DNA from: a virus
DNA: 34,663 nucleotides
Virus record (IMG/VR): IMGVR_UViG_3300025168_000296
Span: 1-34,663 of that record
Direction: 5' to 3' (one strand)
The position numbers and the translations under genes were made by a program. This document shows, one piece after another, positions 2,688 to 19,902 of the stretch (positions are counted from its first letter, which is position 1; each line of letters opens with the position of its first letter). The notes below the pieces were generated by a model that was given only the letters and a program-made list of their open reading frames with translations, was not told the DNA's origin and made no database searches.

Positions 2688-3737
2688 ATGATTAATACAC
2701 AAAGTATGCAGAAAATGGCCGATATCCTAAGAAAGATACGGAATCCTTCTCTAACAGAAGCAACTGGTGATAAAGAAGAATATCAACGAAAACGCAAAGA
2801 AGTTGCGAAAAAGTTTGGTGTTGAATCTTGTTCTGCATTGAAAGATGAGAAAGAACGAAAAGCGTGTTATAGCGCACTTGATGCTGCTCATGTTGCCGAC
2901 CATGAAGAACAAGTTCAGACAGAAGCAAAAGTGAAGCACGAATGTCCAAAATGTAATGGTGAAGGTTGTAAACATTGTGATGGAAGGGGATATCACCTAG
3001 AAGATGAGAGTGAAGATCCAGTAGGAAAAAACGAAGAAGTTAAAGAGGCGGTTCTTGTTGACAGAGATTACAAGTATGATGGAAAAGTAATTAAAATTTC
3101 CAAAAAGAATTTTAGTAAAGTTCATAGAGATTTCAAGAACCCTACTAAGGGCAAAGAAACGATGATAACTTATGACAGTAAAGAAGGAACAGTTTTAGTT
3201 CCAGTTGAGTTTACTGAAGAAGTTGAGATCGAAGAAGAATTTTGGGCAGTTATAGACAAAGCAAAAGGTGGTGAAGTAATGGCCGTAACAACTGATGAGA
3301 AGGGTGCTAAGTCCTCTGTCAAAATGTCTAACTTTTCAAAACATGATTATCATTTTGGAAAAGATCCAAGAACTCTGAAGATTGTTAAAGTTATGGGGAA
3401 GCACAGTCAGAAAAAGGCTGAGAAAATGATTGGATCGAAATTGTCCTTCAAAGAAGAAGTTGATATTGAAGAGGGCGGACTTTATGCTGCAAAAGAACCT
3501 GCATATCCACCAACAATAGACAATCTTAAAAAGATAGTAAAAGATAAACAAAATCTTATGTTCATGTTCAAAGATGGAAGAGCAAGAGTAGATTTGTTTT
3601 CTGCATCTGCAATGACTCAGGTATATGATGCACTAAAGAAACCAGACCATAAAAAACATTTTGAAAAGATGATAGGAACTAAAGTAGGATTCCTTCAAGC
3701 ACAAGGATTTGCGATGAAAATGATTGGAGGAAAGTAA
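2688..3737 (+). CDS. Modular head-cargo-like protein with DnaJ-type zinc motif
   Basis: This 349-residue lysine/glutamate-rich protein has an N-terminal helix ending PSLTE|A (E24). It carries a four-cysteine CxxCxGxGCxxCxG motif at C86, C89, C94 and C97, like one repeat of the DnaJ zinc domain. Several acidic spacers resemble prohead-protease sites: VEIEE near residue 183 and VDIEE|G near residue 262. The spacers separate compact beta-rich modules at roughly 120-175, 184-250 and 263-349. The start is supported by AAGGAA upstream. The same spacer type recurs in the next gene. Processing into several peptides inside the prohead is inferred; I do not recognise a named family. Confidence 0.7.
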   Translation: MINTQSMQKMADILRKIRNPSLTEATGDKEEYQRKRKEVAKKFGVESCSALKDEKERKACYSALDAAHVADHEEQVQTEAKVKHECPKCNGEGCKHCDGRGYHLEDESEDPVGKNEEVKEAVLVDRDYKYDGKVIKISKKNFSKVHRDFKNPTKGKETMITYDSKEGTVLVPVEFTEEVEIEEEFWAVIDKAKGGEVMAVTTDEKGAKSSVKMSNFSKHDYHFGKDPRTLKIVKVMGKHSQKKAEKMIGSKLSFKEEVDIEEGGLYAAKEPAYPPTIDNLKKIVKDKQNLMFMFKDGRARVDLFSASAMTQVYDALKKPDHKKHFEKMIGTKVGFLQAQGFAMKMIGGK

Positions 3738-3738
3738 A

Positions 3739-5628
3739 ATGGATAAAGAATTTGCAAAATTTATAGAAACAAAAGAAGTGGATGTTGAACAGGCATTTGT
3801 GGAAGAATTTGAACTTGAAGAAGATAAGGATAATGAAGCGGCGGAATTAATGAAGCGAAGATTTGATGATGCAGGAATAAAAATGAAATCAAAGGATGGA
3901 AAAATAGTTATTGCTAAAAAAGATAAGAAAAAAGCAATGGATGCACTAACCAGATCTTTCCCAGCAACTCCTGTTATGCGGAAAACTCTTGATAAATTTA
4001 TGGATAAACACACGGATAAATTTTTCACATTTGAAGAATTTGAACTTGGTGAAGCAAGCACTTACAGAGACAAAGCAAAAGATGAGAAGAAAAAGAAACA
4101 GTTTGTTTTCGGAGGAAAAAAGAAAAGTCGTCATGGTGAGTCTGGATATGGTAAAGGAGAAGAAGTAAAGGTTGATGAAGCAAATAACCCTCTTGCAAAA
4201 GTCAAGAGAATGTTGGATGAAAAATACGTAAATCAAGATAAGTTTTTCCCTACAGTATTGTTAGATGGACTTAAAAAAGCAATTCCTGGCGTGAAGTTGG
4301 TTCGACATTCAATCAAACATCCAAGATCTAGTGAAACAATACCTGGCCTCGGATTACAATTGTCTGGTGATAAGGGTGTCAGGATTATGGTTCAGTATGA
4401 AAAAGAAGATTCTCCCCCTTCAAAAAGTTTTAAGCCGGGAGAAAAGATTATCGATATAGATCCAGAAACAGGGAAAAAAGAAGTTACTGATACATCTATA
4501 GTAGGTGGATTTGCTGTATGGATTAATGATGTAGGAAAAATATGGAAACCAAATGAAACTAGGTGGATTCAAGCAAAAGATTTCAGAGATCCTAAAAAGG
4601 TTGTCCAATTTCTTAAAACCAAAGTTAAGAGAATGTTGAAAGCAGGATATATGTATTCTTCTTACAATAAGGAAGAAGTTGAACTTGATGAAAGTGCTAT
4701 GTTACAGGCTAAAATGGCATTAGGTGATGCAGACATAAAACACAAAGAACATAATGGAAAAATAATAATCAATAAGAAAGATAAGAAAAAAGCACAGGAT
4801 GTTTTAATTAAATCTTTTTCTAAAAAAGGAAAACCTCCAAAATTAACTATTGCATCTGGTTCTTTTCAAGAAGAAGTTGAACTTGATGAAGCAAAGAGTA
4901 AGCTCCCACCTCATCTTGCGAAGTTCTTTGATAAAGACGGAAATTTGAAAAAGGATGCCGCAGCACGTGTTGCAAAAGGTAGAGAAAAAATAAACTGGAT
5001 AGATGTAACCCCTAAAGGTTATGGGCCAAAAGAAGAAGGTATCGATATTGAAAAAGCAAGTATGGGAGCAGTCATAAAAGATTTCCAAGATTCCGATGCA
5101 CCACAATTCAAAGGTAAGTCAGACAAGAAACGCAAAGAAATGGCCATTGCCGCAAAACTTTCCAAAGAAGAAAAAGAAGAGGATGATCCAAAATCCAAAA
5201 AGAAAGACAAGTTAAACTTCAAACCCAAAATGGACGAGAAACAAATGAAAAAATATAAAGAACTCTTTGCTGGGTTACGAGAAAAACGTGCTCAAGAAAG
5301 AACACTTAAAAAGACTGTTTCAGACTATCACAAAGAAGAAGTCAAAGAAGCAGTTTTAGATAACGGACTTGAAGTCGGAGAACAGGATTGGGATGGACAT
5401 TATAGACATTCTCATGCATATCCAAATCTTAATGTCAACTTTGCGAAGTACATAGATGAAGGTTTAGAAGGCCCATATGAACTTAGTGGAGAAGTGTATT
5501 TTTATGATAGAAAAGTACATATGTTTTACTCCGTTTCAGGGGAAGATTATGTCGATGAAGAAACGGCAAAAGATATTGCCTATAGACTCCATAAAGACGG
5601 TGCTTACAAACCAGAATTGGGTCGTTAA
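3739..5628 (+). CDS. Large polyprotein-like virion protein with repeated L-x-E spacers
   Basis: The 629-residue protein starts at ATG 3739, which has GGAGGAAAG upstream; a TTG start at 3724 is less likely. Acidic spacers recur: EFELEE (26-28), EFELGE|A (103-105), EVKVDE|A (145-147), EVELDE|S (316-318), EVELDE|A (382-384) and EVKE|A (535-537). Most fit the (L/I)-x-E rule of T4 gp21. Between them are modules. Residues 45-74 and 331-360 are an internal repeat with 19 of 30 identical positions; 418-430 contain the NWIDVTPKGYGP motif seen in other marine phage proteins; 540-629 form a separate acidic alpha/beta domain. A packaged precursor cut into peptides is inferred. Confidence 0.7.
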   Translation: MDKEFAKFIETKEVDVEQAFVEEFELEEDKDNEAAELMKRRFDDAGIKMKSKDGKIVIAKKDKKKAMDALTRSFPATPVMRKTLDKFMDKHTDKFFTFEEFELGEASTYRDKAKDEKKKKQFVFGGKKKSRHGESGYGKGEEVKVDEANNPLAKVKRMLDEKYVNQDKFFPTVLLDGLKKAIPGVKLVRHSIKHPRSSETIPGLGLQLSGDKGVRIMVQYEKEDSPPSKSFKPGEKIIDIDPETGKKEVTDTSIVGGFAVWINDVGKIWKPNETRWIQAKDFRDPKKVVQFLKTKVKRMLKAGYMYSSYNKEEVELDESAMLQAKMALGDADIKHKEHNGKIIINKKDKKKAQDVLIKSFSKKGKPPKLTIASGSFQEEVELDEAKSKLPPHLAKFFDKDGNLKKDAAARVAKGREKINWIDVTPKGYGPKEEGIDIEKASMGAVIKDFQDSDAPQFKGKSDKKRKEMAIAAKLSKEEKEEDDPKSKKKDKLNFKPKMDEKQMKKYKELFAGLREKRAQERTLKKTVSDYHKEEVKEAVLDNGLEVGEQDWDGHYRHSHAYPNLNVNFAKYIDEGLEGPYELSGEVYFYDRKVHMFYSVSGEDYVDEETAKDIAYRLHKDGAYKPELGR

Positions 5629-5664
5629 TAATAACAATTTTTAAATTTAATACAGGAGAATAAA

Positions 5665-6255
5665 ATGTCCTTATGGGGAAAAACCGCAGCTGGTACACAA
5701 GCACAAAAACCAAAGTGGTTGTCTACCGATGAAAACTCGGAATTCAAGAAACAAGATATATTTGCACAAACACCTGGCTGGGCTCAAAAGGCCGGAACTA
5801 AAGCATCTGGTAATGATAACTCATCTGCACAGGAAGAAATTCTTGCTTGTGTTGGTGGACTTTCTACTACACTTGGTGGTGCATCTGTTACAAGTGTACG
5901 CTGGACTACAACTGCAACCGCAGCAGGATCACGAACAGTTACTGCTCAAGTTACATTTGATGAAGAAGTCACAGTAACCGCTCCAAATGCAAGTAATGAA
6001 CCACGAATCGTATGTGCAGTCGCAAGTTCATTCCCTGCAACTACTTTATCATATACTGCTGGAACAGGAACAAACAGATTAACATTTGCAAAAGCAAGTG
6101 TTTCTGTTAATAACGGTGGAACTTGTTCAATTGGTGGTGGTTCAGGTGCAGCAATTACATATGCTGGTTCTGGTGCTATCGTAGATCAAGATGGTACTGC
6201 TGCTACTGTTGCAACAACTGGTACAACGATTGCAACGTATACTGGAACTGCGTAA
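5665..6255 (+). CDS. Beta-rich virion structural or decoration protein
   Basis: The 196-residue protein begins MSLWGKTAAGTQAQKPKWL, an N-terminus I associate with structural proteins of T4-like marine phages. It then becomes a threonine, glycine and alanine-rich beta domain (VTAQVTFDEEVTVTA), likely Ig-like or jelly-roll in type. ACAGGAGAATAAA precedes the ATG. It follows the head-cargo cluster and precedes adhesin-like genes, and a large hairpin lies after its stop. Virion location is inferred from composition and neighbours. Confidence 0.65.
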   Translation: MSLWGKTAAGTQAQKPKWLSTDENSEFKKQDIFAQTPGWAQKAGTKASGNDNSSAQEEILACVGGLSTTLGGASVTSVRWTTTATAAGSRTVTAQVTFDEEVTVTAPNASNEPRIVCAVASSFPATTLSYTAGTGTNRLTFAKASVSVNNGGTCSIGGGSGAAITYAGSGAIVDQDGTAATVATTGTTIATYTGTA

Positions 6256-11138: not shown

Positions 11139-12161
11139 ATGCCATCATATATCGATACAAAGTACGTAAACTTACTTGCTTTGAGACTCCCTCTATTTAA
11201 ACGTAAGAATCAAGGATTGTACAATTTTCGTTGTCCTTTCTGTGGTGATTCTCAAAAGAGCAAAACCAAGGCTCGGGGATACTTTTATCAAAAACGAACA
11301 GATCTTTTTTATCGTTGTCACAATTGCGGCCAAAGTTCTACATTTTCCAATTTTCTTAAACAGTTTGATGGAGAAATGTACAAGGACTATTCTTTAGAGA
11401 GATATAAAGAAGGAATTACAGGAAAGGGGCAAAATACACCTGACCCCGAATTTCAAGTAGAGAAACCAAAGTTTCACACGAAGATTGATTTACCAAGAAT
11501 AAGTGATTTAGATGACAATCACTTTGCAAAAAAGTATTTGGTTAATCGAGCAATTCCTAGTCAGTTTTTGAATTACCTATATTATACAGAGGACTTTAAA
11601 GGTTTTGTTGAAAAAGTTGCAGAACGTGATTATGACCTCGCAAAAAAAGAACAAAGAATTGTCATTCCCTTCTATGACTCAGATAAAAAATTAATTGCAT
11701 TTCAAGGTAGAGCATTTACAAACTCTCTGCTTCGTTATATCACTATAAAGGTTTACGAAGATTCCTCAAAAATATTTGGACTAGATAGGTTAGATATAAC
11801 GAAACCCTTTTATATTGTAGAAGGGCCATTCGATTCTATGTTTCTTCCAAATTGTATTGCGATGGCAGGATCAGATGTTAATTTAAGTGATCAGTCTGAT
11901 ATTGTAAATGCAATGAATGAAGGAACAGGAACAATGATATTCGATAATGAACCTAGAAACAAAGAAATACTTTCTAGAATGAATAAGGTTATTGATAAAG
12001 GTTGGAAAATTTGTATCTGGCCAGATTCGGTTGCTTGTAAAGACATCAACGATATGATTCTTGCAAGTATCCAAGAATCAAGATTAATTGAAATAATAAA
12101 TAAAAACACGTACAAAAGTCTATTCGCAAAAACACAGCTCGCCCTATGGAGAAGAACATGA
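11139..12161 (+). CDS. 61: T4-type DNA primase (gp61)
   Basis: The 340-residue primase makes RNA primers for lagging-strand synthesis with the gp41 helicase. An N-terminal zinc-binding domain has CPFCGDS (C32, C35) and YRCHNCG (C60, C63). The TOPRIM catalytic core follows, with YIVEGPFDSMF carrying the conserved glutamate, then AMAGSDVN and the acidic CIWPDSVACKDINDM. This order and the 340-residue length match T4 gp61. It lies directly behind a consensus early promoter, and its stop overlaps the reductase start as ATGA. Confidence 0.9.
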   Translation: MPSYIDTKYVNLLALRLPLFKRKNQGLYNFRCPFCGDSQKSKTKARGYFYQKRTDLFYRCHNCGQSSTFSNFLKQFDGEMYKDYSLERYKEGITGKGQNTPDPEFQVEKPKFHTKIDLPRISDLDDNHFAKKYLVNRAIPSQFLNYLYYTEDFKGFVEKVAERDYDLAKKEQRIVIPFYDSDKKLIAFQGRAFTNSLLRYITIKVYEDSSKIFGLDRLDITKPFYIVEGPFDSMFLPNCIAMAGSDVNLSDQSDIVNAMNEGTGTMIFDNEPRNKEILSRMNKVIDKGWKICIWPDSVACKDINDMILASIQESRLIEIINKNTYKSLFAKTQLALWRRT

Positions 12162-14128
12162 ATTCAAAAGATCCCATCACCCTGCCCACACAATACCAAC
12201 AATTCATACATTTATCACGTTATGCACGATGGGATTACGATAAAAAACGAAGAGAAACATGGGGAGAAACAGTTAATAGATTTTTTGGGTTTTTTCAAGA
12301 ACATCTTAAAGAGATGTGTAATTATGATTTGGACAATGGTATTTTAGAAGAATTGAAAAATGAAGTATTGTCGTTGAATGTAATGCCTTCTATGCGATGT
12401 TTGATGACTGCTGGAGATGCACTCCGCAAAGAAAATATTGCAGGGTACAATTGTTCTTATGTTAAAGTTGACACTCCACGTTCTTTCGATGAAATCCTTT
12501 ATGTTCTTATGAATGGAACAGGAGTGGGATTTAGTGTAGAAACAGAACACGTAAATCATCTTCCAGTAATTGCAGAAGAATTTCATCCAACTGACACAAC
12601 AATAGTTGTTGCAGATTCTAAACTTGGATGGGCAAAGGCATTCAAAGAATTGTTAAGTCTATTGTGGAGTGGCCAAGTTCCGAAATGGGATTTATCTAAA
12701 GTTAGAGAAGCAGGGAAACCTCTGAAGACATTTGGAGGTAGAGCATCGGGGCCAGAACCACTTGATGATTTATTTCATTTTTCAACTAAGATATTTCGAG
12801 ATGCAGCAGGAAGAAAACTCAAATCTATCGAATGTCATGATATTGTTTGTAAAATTGCTGAAATTGTTGTGGTTGGTGGTGTTCGTAGAAGCGCTCTTAT
12901 TAGCCTTTCTGATTTAAACGATGGAGAGATGAGACACGCAAAATCGGGTCAATGGTGGGAACACAATGTCCAGAGAGCACTTGCAAATAATTCAGTTAAT
13001 TACAAAGAAAAACCAGATACAGGAACTTTTATGAGAGAATGGTTATCTCTCTATGATTCCAAATCGGGTGAAAGAGGAATTTACAATGGAATGTCAGCAA
13101 AAAATCAAGTAGCATCATTAAACGAGAGGGAAAAAGATGGAAATGGAAAATATGTCACAAGAAGAGATCCTAGAGATGATTTCGGAACTAACCCCTGTAG
13201 CGAGATTATACTTAGAAGTAGAGAGTTCTGCAACCTTAGTGAGTGCGTTGTCAGAAGACATGACAGTATTGAATCTCTTAAAAAGAAAGTCAGAACTGCA
13301 ACAATCCTTGGCACTTTCCAATCCACTCTTACCAATTTTAGATACCTTACCAAAGAGTGGGAAAAAAATTGTACTGAAGAAAGGTTGTTGGGTGTCTCAC
13401 TTACCGGCATTTTAGATAATCCTTTAACAAATGGTAAGAAAAAAGGATTAGAAACTCTATTAGAAGATTTAAGAAAGGTTGCGTATGAAACAAACAAAGA
13501 ATGGGCAGACAAACTCGGAATCGAACGAGCAGCTGCAATCACTTGTGTCAAACCATCTGGTACTGTTAGTCAGCTTGTTGATAGTGCTTCTGGTATTCAT
13601 GCCAGGCATAATCCTTATTATATCAGAACTGTAAGAGCGGACAATAAAGACCCTCTTTGCAAATTCATGAAGGAGAAGGGATTTCCAAATGAACCCGATG
13701 TAACAAAACCAAAACATACAACTGTGTTCTCTTTTCCAATGAAAGGGCCAGACCAAGCAGTCTATCGACAAGATATGTCAGCGATAGACCAATTGAAACT
13801 ATGGATGACTTATCAGACTTATTGGTGTGAACATAAACCATCTGTCACTATTACTGTCAAAGAAGAAGAGTGGCCAAAAGTTGGTTCGTGGGTATGGGAA
13901 AACTTTGATTCTATTAGTGGAATTTCTTTCTTGCCTTTTAGTGAACATACATACAGACAGGCACCTTATCAAGACTGTACAAAAGAGGAATACAACAATG
14001 TATTGAAAACAATTCCTCAAGATGTAGATTGGAAGGATTTATCACAATATGAAGAAGTGGATTATACAGTCGCATCACAAGAACTAGCTTGTTCCGCAGA
14101 TGGTGGTTGTGAAATAGTAGACCTTTAA
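12158..14128 (+). CDS. nrdJ: Class II (B12-dependent) ribonucleotide reductase
   Basis: The enzyme reduces ribonucleotides to deoxyribonucleotides using adenosylcobalamin. ATG 12158 is preferred because GGAGAA lies 5 bases upstream and it overlaps the primase stop; a start at 12146 is possible. The 656-residue length, shorter than the roughly 740 of Lactobacillus RTPR, is that of a compact monomeric class II enzyme. Key residues from ATG 12158 are C99 in YNCSY, the thiyl cysteine C347 and E349 in NPCSEI, and C358 in REFCNLSE. The 11-residue spacing C347-C358 equals that in RTPR. A C-terminal redox pair is in ACSADGGCE. T4 itself uses class I NrdAB, so this is a marine-phage trait. Confidence 0.9.
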   Translation: MNSKDPITLPTQYQQFIHLSRYARWDYDKKRRETWGETVNRFFGFFQEHLKEMCNYDLDNGILEELKNEVLSLNVMPSMRCLMTAGDALRKENIAGYNCSYVKVDTPRSFDEILYVLMNGTGVGFSVETEHVNHLPVIAEEFHPTDTTIVVADSKLGWAKAFKELLSLLWSGQVPKWDLSKVREAGKPLKTFGGRASGPEPLDDLFHFSTKIFRDAAGRKLKSIECHDIVCKIAEIVVVGGVRRSALISLSDLNDGEMRHAKSGQWWEHNVQRALANNSVNYKEKPDTGTFMREWLSLYDSKSGERGIYNGMSAKNQVASLNEREKDGNGKYVTRRDPRDDFGTNPCSEIILRSREFCNLSECVVRRHDSIESLKKKVRTATILGTFQSTLTNFRYLTKEWEKNCTEERLLGVSLTGILDNPLTNGKKKGLETLLEDLRKVAYETNKEWADKLGIERAAAITCVKPSGTVSQLVDSASGIHARHNPYYIRTVRADNKDPLCKFMKEKGFPNEPDVTKPKHTTVFSFPMKGPDQAVYRQDMSAIDQLKLWMTYQTYWCEHKPSVTITVKEEEWPKVGSWVWENFDSISGISFLPFSEHTYRQAPYQDCTKEEYNNVLKTIPQDVDWKDLSQYEEVDYTVASQELACSADGGCEIVDL

Positions 14129-18779: not shown

Positions 18780-19490
18780 ATGAAAAAATTTAATTATGAT
18801 CTTCTTGAAAATCGAAAAGATCAATTAGTTCAAGATAACTCTGGCCCAAGTAGAGTGTATCATGTTCCTAATGGCACATATCCTTCTATCACCAGTTTGC
18901 TCTACCAAATCATTTCTAAAGCAGGAATTGAAAAGTGGAAAGCAAGTGTCGGAGAAGAAAAGGCGAAAAAGATTTCTGCCAAGGCTTCTAGAAGGGGAAC
19001 ACGAATTCATGGATATATTGAAAAGTATCTAGAAGGTAATGAAAATTATTTTGATAAAGCAGCACCAGATCACATGGAGCTTGTTAATCTTGCAATACCT
19101 CAAATAAACGAAAAGATAGATAACATTCGTGGAATTGAAATGGGAATGTGGTCTAATGGATTGAAGGTAGCAGGAACATCAGATTTGGTTGCAGATTATG
19201 AAGGAGAACTTGCAATAATAGATTGGAAAACCGCCACTTATATTAAAAAAGAAGAATACCTACTTTCATACATCTTACAAGGAACAGCGTACTGTATGAT
19301 GCTGTATGAGATGTATGGACTACTTCCAAAGAAAATTGTCATATGTTCGTTGATTAGGTTTGACCCTATGAAATACAATCCTCTATTGGATCAAGACATT
19401 CATATAGATTGGAAAGTATATAATCCCTTAGATTATATCCGTCAGTTAAAATCAGTATGTGACGCTTATCATTTCAGTAGAAAGAGATAA
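18780..19490 (+). CDS. PD-(D/E)XK nuclease (MGME1/RecB-like)
   Basis: The 236-residue protein has a RecB-like nuclease core: VPNGTYPSITSLL, RGTRIHGYIEKYL, E-containing IRGIEMGMWSNGL, then GTSDLVADYEGELAIIDWKT with the D...(D)xK catalytic residues, and a helix LLSYILQGTAYCMMLYEM carrying the conserved Q. These features match the phage exonuclease/MGME1-type group that degrades or trims DNA ends. No Shine-Dalgarno sequence lies next to ATG 18780; the closest GGAGAGG is inside the terminator stem about 25 bases upstream. A late promoter follows the gene. Confidence 0.8.
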   Translation: MKKFNYDLLENRKDQLVQDNSGPSRVYHVPNGTYPSITSLLYQIISKAGIEKWKASVGEEKAKKISAKASRRGTRIHGYIEKYLEGNENYFDKAAPDHMELVNLAIPQINEKIDNIRGIEMGMWSNGLKVAGTSDLVADYEGELAIIDWKTATYIKKEEYLLSYILQGTAYCMMLYEMYGLLPKKIVICSLIRFDPMKYNPLLDQDIHIDWKVYNPLDYIRQLKSVCDAYHFSRKR

Positions 19491-19498
19491 TATAAATA
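19491..19498 (+). promoter_or_regulatory. T4-type late promoter TATAAATA before tmRNA
   Basis: This exact TATAAATA is located one base after the nuclease gene stop and just before the tmRNA acceptor piece. Transcription would start near 19504. No convincing sigma70 promoter is visible here, so the tmRNA may be a late transcript. Confidence 0.7.
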
Positions 19499-19588
19499 TT
19501 TACAGATATACAGGAATTTGTTTGATGACCTGAGAGGGTATCTTATAAGACATCGGGGCAGTTCCGATCAGCTCCACCAAAGAGAGTT

Positions 19589-19681
19589 ATGGAAAAAAAA
19601 TTAATGTGGCTTGCAATTATGATATTGCTTGGATTGTGTTTAACTTATGCCACACTTTATATTGGATATGACTATCGTTGA
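19589..19681 (+). CDS. 30-residue membrane peptide inside tmRNA intervening segment
   Basis: An ATG with AGAGAG upstream opens a 30-codon frame starting MEKKLMWLAIMILLGLCL and ending YIGYDYR. It has two lysines, then about 20 hydrophobic residues, then a polar tail: a single predicted membrane helix with N-in orientation. The frame fills almost the whole segment between the tmRNA CCA end (19579) and GGGGCTG (19683), and its TGA ends two bases before the mature coding piece. Such small hydrophobic peptides include phage holin-like and anti-holin proteins. Translation is inferred; this segment would be removed from the mature tmRNA. Confidence 0.55.
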   Translation: MEKKLMWLAIMILLGLCLTYATLYIGYDYR

Positions 19682-19762
19682 TGGGGCTGAAATAGATTTC
19701 GATTGTAAGAGATAGTATCAGAGAGAACAGATAGGGTGATGACCAACATCGAAACCATAATC

Positions 19763-19810
19763 GCAAATAATTCCGATTATACTGCATACTCTTACGCACT
19801 CGCTGCGTAG
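19763..19810 (+). other. tmRNA proteolysis-tag reading frame
   Basis: From the GCA resume codon the frame reads ANNSDYTAYSYALAA followed by TAG. The C-terminal ALAA matches the ClpXP-recognised end of bacterial tags such as E. coli's (A)ANDENYALAA. Alanine as the resume residue and the A-rich region upstream (GAAACCATAATC) also fit known tmRNAs. Fifteen residues is within the usual tag range. Confidence 0.9.
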
Positions 19811-19902
19811 AGTATAGCTGAGTTAGAGGGTAGTCCTCCGGCCGGTCGCTTGGAAACAGAAGAACCGGCCACTACACACAAACACACACATAAAGGAAAC
19901 AT

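Follow-up and report, generated by a model that had tools for sequence, protein, structure and literature searches.

Phage tmRNAs are known, but the segment between the two pieces of a permuted tmRNA has so far been treated as waste. The locus described here, which lies in a 34,663-nucleotide stretch of viral DNA (IMG/VR record IMGVR_UViG_3300025168_000296; this whole stretch is referred to as the window), raises the question of whether that segment can instead be a gene. From sequence comparisons, we conclude with a probability of roughly 0.75 that a working-looking permuted tmRNA and a small protein gene nested in its intervening sequence (IVS) share one transcript, that a covarying stem encloses the start codon of the gene, and that the transcript would give rise to three products. 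The nested gene is the novel part of this locus, the phage tmRNA itself being already known.

A cmscan search of the whole window matched the model RF04321 (tmRNA_permuted) at positions 19517 to 19810 (+) with 84.5 bits (E value of 5.4e-15), which is above the gathering cut-off of 47. A preliminary description of the locus had proposed a permuted two-piece tmRNA with the acceptor piece first and had pointed to covariance models as a check; its coordinates and features were right, and positions 19517 to 19810 are confirmed, as far as sequence can tell, as a permuted, two-piece, alpha-type tmRNA of a T4-like phage. The model RF01849 (alpha_tmRNA) scores 43.2 bits over positions 19468 to 19873, which is under the cut-off of 50 for that family, and the window tmRNA is for this reason classed as alpha-like only; elsewhere, RF01849 scores 63.5 bits in the relative L025, 51.6 bits in L005, and 106.7 bits in phage Melnitz. 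ARAGORN found no tmRNA in the window. The 7-bp acceptor stem with its G3·U pair and the frame that opens at a GCA resume codon, encodes the tag ANNSDYTAYSYALAA, and ends at TAG had also been described beforehand; both can be read in the window, and the acceptor pairing and the tag are kept in related phages. The predicted precursor fold includes the acceptor stem (z = -2.6). With all tmRNA domains and a conserved tag present, the window tmRNA looks functional. Its possible roles, as put forward in the preliminary description, would be to free ribosomes on decaying host mRNA or to redirect proteolysis. The lack of the usual TTC in the T-loop, which had been put forward as an anomaly, is ruled out as such by the alphaproteobacterial consensus, since the T-loop of alpha_tmRNA is GGCgGUA. 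The features of the locus are collected in Table 1.

Table 1. Features of the tmRNA locus and its nested ORF (window coordinates)
Feature	Position	Strand	Remarks
Candidate late promoter, T4 type, TATAAATA	19491-19498	+	Exact octamer, directly after the exonuclease stop codon
Acceptor piece	19517-19579	+	RF04321 match starts at 19517; expected fold obtained
T-arm	19552-19568	+	Part of acceptor piece
Acceptor 3' strand (CAGCTCC)	19569-19575	+	Part of acceptor piece
Discriminator A	19576	+	CAGCTCC-A-CCA at 19569-19579
CCA	19577-19579	+	3' end of acceptor piece
IVS stem, 5' arm	19578-19591	+	CA of CCA, leader, start codon of nested ORF
IVS (103 nt)	19580-19682	+	Between CCA and G1; removal from mature tmRNA expected
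Shine-Dalgarno-like leader of nested ORF	19580-19585	+	AAGAGA in the window, directly after CCA
Nested ORF, 30 aa, MEKKLMWLAIMILLGLCLTYATLYIGYDYR	19589-19681	+	Stop TGA at 19679-19681, 1 nt before G1; predicted single-pass membrane protein
IVS stem, 3' arm	19667-19680	+	End of nested ORF; pairs covary across relatives
Coding (mRNA-like) piece	19683-19873	+	RF04321 and RF01849 matches; 3' limit approximate; ends with alpha-type 3' hairpin
5' acceptor strand (GGGGCTG)	19683-19689	+	Pairs with CAGCTCC over 7 bp, with G3·U
Tag reading frame, ANNSDYTAYSYALAA	19763-19810	+	Resume codon GCA at 19763, stop TAG at 19808-19810; conserved in relatives
3'-terminal hairpin (GGCCGGT..ACCGGCC), loop motif GGAAACAGAA	19840-19870	+	From alpha_tmRNA alignment and sequence; as in alphaproteobacterial tmRNA

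The nested ORF nearly fills the IVS. Its peptide has a maximum 19-residue hydropathy of 2.18, a hydrophobic segment that suggests a membrane location, and the protein probably has a late role in infection, at the inner membrane. Searches of Pfam and PHROGs gave no match for the 30-aa and 55-aa ORFs, and tblastn of both against annotated phages gave no credible match. Because blastn of the tmRNA region against annotated phages also gave no match, relatives were drawn from IMG/VR (114 viral stretches sharing the DNA pattern of the 5' piece) and pooled with loci fetched earlier. IVS lengths among the relatives range from 13 to 205 nt, and the pooled set contains 64 distinct IVSs, of which 55 are at least 80 nt long and 9 are short slots of 13 to 42 nt. 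All 55 distinct phage IVSs of at least 80 nt contain an ATG ORF of at least 20 codons that lies wholly inside, starts 4 to 15 nt after CCA, and stops 1 to 16 nt before G1, frequencies in this set being biased since the collections were searched by DNA pattern. A Shine-Dalgarno (SD)-like sequence right after CCA is usual in these 55 IVSs (variants among the relatives include AAGGAA, AGGAAT, and AGGAGA), and the leader in the window is a weaker SD than that of most relatives. Dinucleotide-preserving shuffles gave a similarly placed ORF in 8.5% of trials, even though the shuffle test was looser than the real count, accepting GTG or TTG as start codons and end distances of up to 24 nt. In contrast with the phage IVSs, none of 109 alphaproteobacterial IVSs (median length, 36 nt) has an ORF in the same placement or a nested gene, and across a larger sample, 385 genomes from the class Alphaproteobacteria, the listed tmRNA spans are mostly 190 to 250 nt, i.e., their IVSs are short.

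The slot is occupied by at least three unrelated protein families, its occupants being membrane peptides of 26 to 32 residues (several sequence groups), basic proteins of 50 to 59 residues ending in DLWD, the Melnitz type, and others. For family 1, that of the window ORF (37 distinct ORFs), pN/pS is 0.42 and the median dN/dS is 0.33, compared with 0.81 and 1.76 in the other frames; for the Melnitz-type ORFs, pN/pS is 0.27, compared with 0.96 and 1.52; and for the DLWD family, it is 0.41 from four close sequences only. These figures are descriptive, the sequences being related and not statistically independent, but the contrast between frames is consistent. Judged by these substitution patterns, the nested ORF is under frame-specific purifying selection, as is expected of a protein-coding gene. 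The alignment of family 1 is too variable, and a single 30-aa peptide too short, for a scan of the collections. Free-standing DLWD-family phage genes are found outside any tmRNA (e.g., in L295, L298, L310, and L313), and since DLWD genes occur both there and in the slot, genes seem to have been moved into or out of it. Some related phages have empty slots of 13 to 42 nt, which indicates that the tmRNA does not depend on the nested gene; the short slot of L038 appears to have arisen by internal deletion, with both ends kept.

In the lineage of the window, a stem of 10 to 14 bp, stacked on the acceptor stem, pairs the leader and start codon with the end of the IVS. The IVS stem is stronger than that of shuffled sequences at P ≤ 0.05 in 54 of the 55 IVSs (mean z, -4.0). 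Across 37 distinct stems, canonical pairs number 12.6 of 14, compared with 10.9 after partner swapping (2,000 swaps; maximum, 11.7), and one pair of the stem is found as G-C, C-G, A-T, and T-A with no exception. The stem of the window itself has two mismatched pairs, yet it is present in the predicted fold (z = -4.0). The leader and AUG are predicted to be unpaired with a probability of 0.11 in the precursor and 0.17 once the IVS has been excised, compared with 0.42 as long as the 3' arm has not been transcribed.

These predictions suggest how a single late transcript might yield three products. Processing by RNase P and 3' nucleases is established for two-piece tmRNAs in general. In the folded precursor, RNase P would cut before G19683 and 3' processing would end at the CCA (19579), leaving a two-piece tmRNA. 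Access of ribosomes to the nested ORF would be confined mostly to the time before the 3' arm exists and to molecules with an open stem. Since a ribosome at the start codon would sit over the acceptor strand, any one molecule could either yield the protein or mature into tmRNA, but not both. Nested-gene translation and precursor folding thus look mutually exclusive. Translation from the excised IVS may be weak, since its start region is mostly paired. Not every phage fits the exclusion model, because the SD of Melnitz-type phages is unpaired and located immediately inside the stem, and processing alone may be the role of the stem, since it is found without an ORF in L038 and L045.

The placement of the SD and start codon within a stem stacked on the acceptor stem, together with a stop codon that adjoins the RNase P site and protein families that vary freely, would also fit a cis-acting regulatory ORF, in which the act of translation and not the peptide controls tmRNA maturation. 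We consider this unlikely, as both the pN/pS values, which are well below 1, and the recurrence of membrane segments point to peptides that matter in themselves. Less probable still is an ordinary phage permuted tmRNA in which the IVS serves as a noncoding spacer hairpin and the ORF results from conservation of the stem: alphaproteobacterial IVSs are mostly short noncoding hairpins, related phages with empty slots exist, and the ORF is constrained at either end by the stem, but the constraint is frame specific across the ORF, ORFs of 26 to 59 codons from unrelated families share the same start and stop placement, and DLWD homologs are also found as free-standing genes outside any tmRNA. It is very improbable that the phage RNA acts on host trans-translation as a decoy or inhibitor, in the manner of the tag-less form of phage DS6A cited in PMC11915505, and is not a working tmRNA, since, despite a score of 84.5 bits compared with about 145 to 167 bits for tmRNAs of the best-scoring alphaproteobacterial genomes, the tag frame is complete, the ALAA tag end and the resume GCA are conserved in nearly all relatives, and the G3·U pair, the CCA, and the acceptor pairing are all kept.

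The reading that we prefer, a protein gene nested in a working-looking tmRNA, can be carried a step further. We suggest tentatively, and with rather less than even confidence, that the phage IVS is a slot for exchangeable small-protein cargo, that translation of the cargo excludes tmRNA maturation, and that the RNA is in this way a switch coupling ribosome availability to two products. If the stem does enforce exclusivity, a single RNA would set whether ribosomes are rescued or a membrane protein is made. The nested genes, which appear to be under selection in the IVSs of many marine phages, cultured Melnitz included, lie in records annotated only as ssrA, and they may help to explain why tmRNA genes are retained by phages and why the permuted form predominates in marine ones.

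The virus in the window is a marine phage that is T4-like by its gene content, and the tmRNA lies between its exonuclease and replication genes. The upstream neighbor is the exonuclease (family phrog_298); downstream is a 75-aa ORF in the place where relatives have gp33, and the T4 core genes on the same contig are gp59 (Pfam), which comes next, the T4-type single-stranded DNA-binding protein that follows it, and, farther off, a gp5-type baseplate hub. The exact octamer reported upstream of the tmRNA, a candidate late promoter, is present. Of 76 distinct tmRNAs, mostly relatives, 44 have it at a distance of 64 to 81 nt before the acceptor strand, but in the window alone TATAAATA is not above chance (4 copies compared with 2.8 expected). 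A search for SmpB in the records covered, among them the complete Melnitz genome, gave no match, and the mature phage tmRNA would therefore work with host SmpB. Puniceispirillum phage HMO-2011 provides the best matches (about 63% identity) to the ribonucleotide reductase of the window (positions 12146 to 14128; phrog_367), and these are annotated as adenosylcobalamin dependent. These matches hint at an alphaproteobacterial host for the window phage.

A tmRNA in a T4-like phage, which the preliminary description had regarded as unusual, has several precedents. PMC9004378 puts the number of two-piece tmRNAs in phage genomes at 53, of which 50 are marine or aquatic, and is also the source for the two-piece ssrA genes of the OM43 phage Melnitz (MZ577097) and the pelagiphage Mosig (MT647606). 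In Melnitz and Mosig, where ssrA is annotated, and in HTVC008M (NC_020484), which has an RF04321 match, a permuted alpha-type tmRNA lies between the exonuclease and gp33, the same place as in the window. Unlike the 103-nt IVS of the window, those of Mosig and HTVC008M are 46 to 49 nt long and have no comparable ORF. The Melnitz IVS is 142 nt long and holds an unannotated conserved ORF, with an unpaired SD, that reads 42 nt into the coding piece; this ORF (MFKWLSKTRLVVITRDYFRERNRKADAKIPKYLSG..., at L171:5297-5480) has a GGAG leader and is conserved in L323 to L340. No nested gene is mentioned in the tmRNA passages of PMC9004378 or in the Melnitz annotation, and we found no report of a nested ORF in a tmRNA IVS in the open-access literature searched.

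Alphaproteobacterial permuted tmRNAs (RF01849 and RF04321) likewise have two pieces with the acceptor piece first, an IVS hairpin, and a 3' hairpin with ACAGAA. A second gene in the removed part of a tmRNA gene has been described in two other forms, group I introns with LAGLIDADG genes inside tmRNA genes and a tRNA-Ala inside one permuted IVS (PMC11915505). Those cases are a homing endonuclease in a self-splicing intron and a tRNA, whereas the window has a small protein gene in a processed IVS, with its start codon in a stem of the precursor.

Several loci depart from the usual arrangement. In L293 (positions 2649 to 2900), a DLWD-family ORF directly precedes the tmRNA coding piece and the contig has no acceptor piece upstream; we regard this as a broken or rearranged tmRNA. 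In L306 (positions 2935 to 3150), an acceptor piece and a DLWD-family ORF are present, and no coding piece was found downstream. A different group of permuted tmRNAs is represented by L136 (positions 5454 to 5795, minus strand), with a 149-nt IVS, identical in 8 loci and so uninformative on conservation, and a 47-codon ORF (MNWDWHWISWFKG...) that ends in the coding piece; this long ORF and others that run into the coding piece were not counted as nested genes. An alphaproteobacterial MAG (L200) has a 166-nt IVS with a 44-codon ORF that starts 28 nt after CCA and ends 3 nt before G1. Other structured RNAs were also seen: glutamine riboswitches at L171:5618 and L173:381, and manA RNA motifs in T4-like marine phages at L174:6385-6585 (164 bits) and L172:8414-8621 (64 bits).
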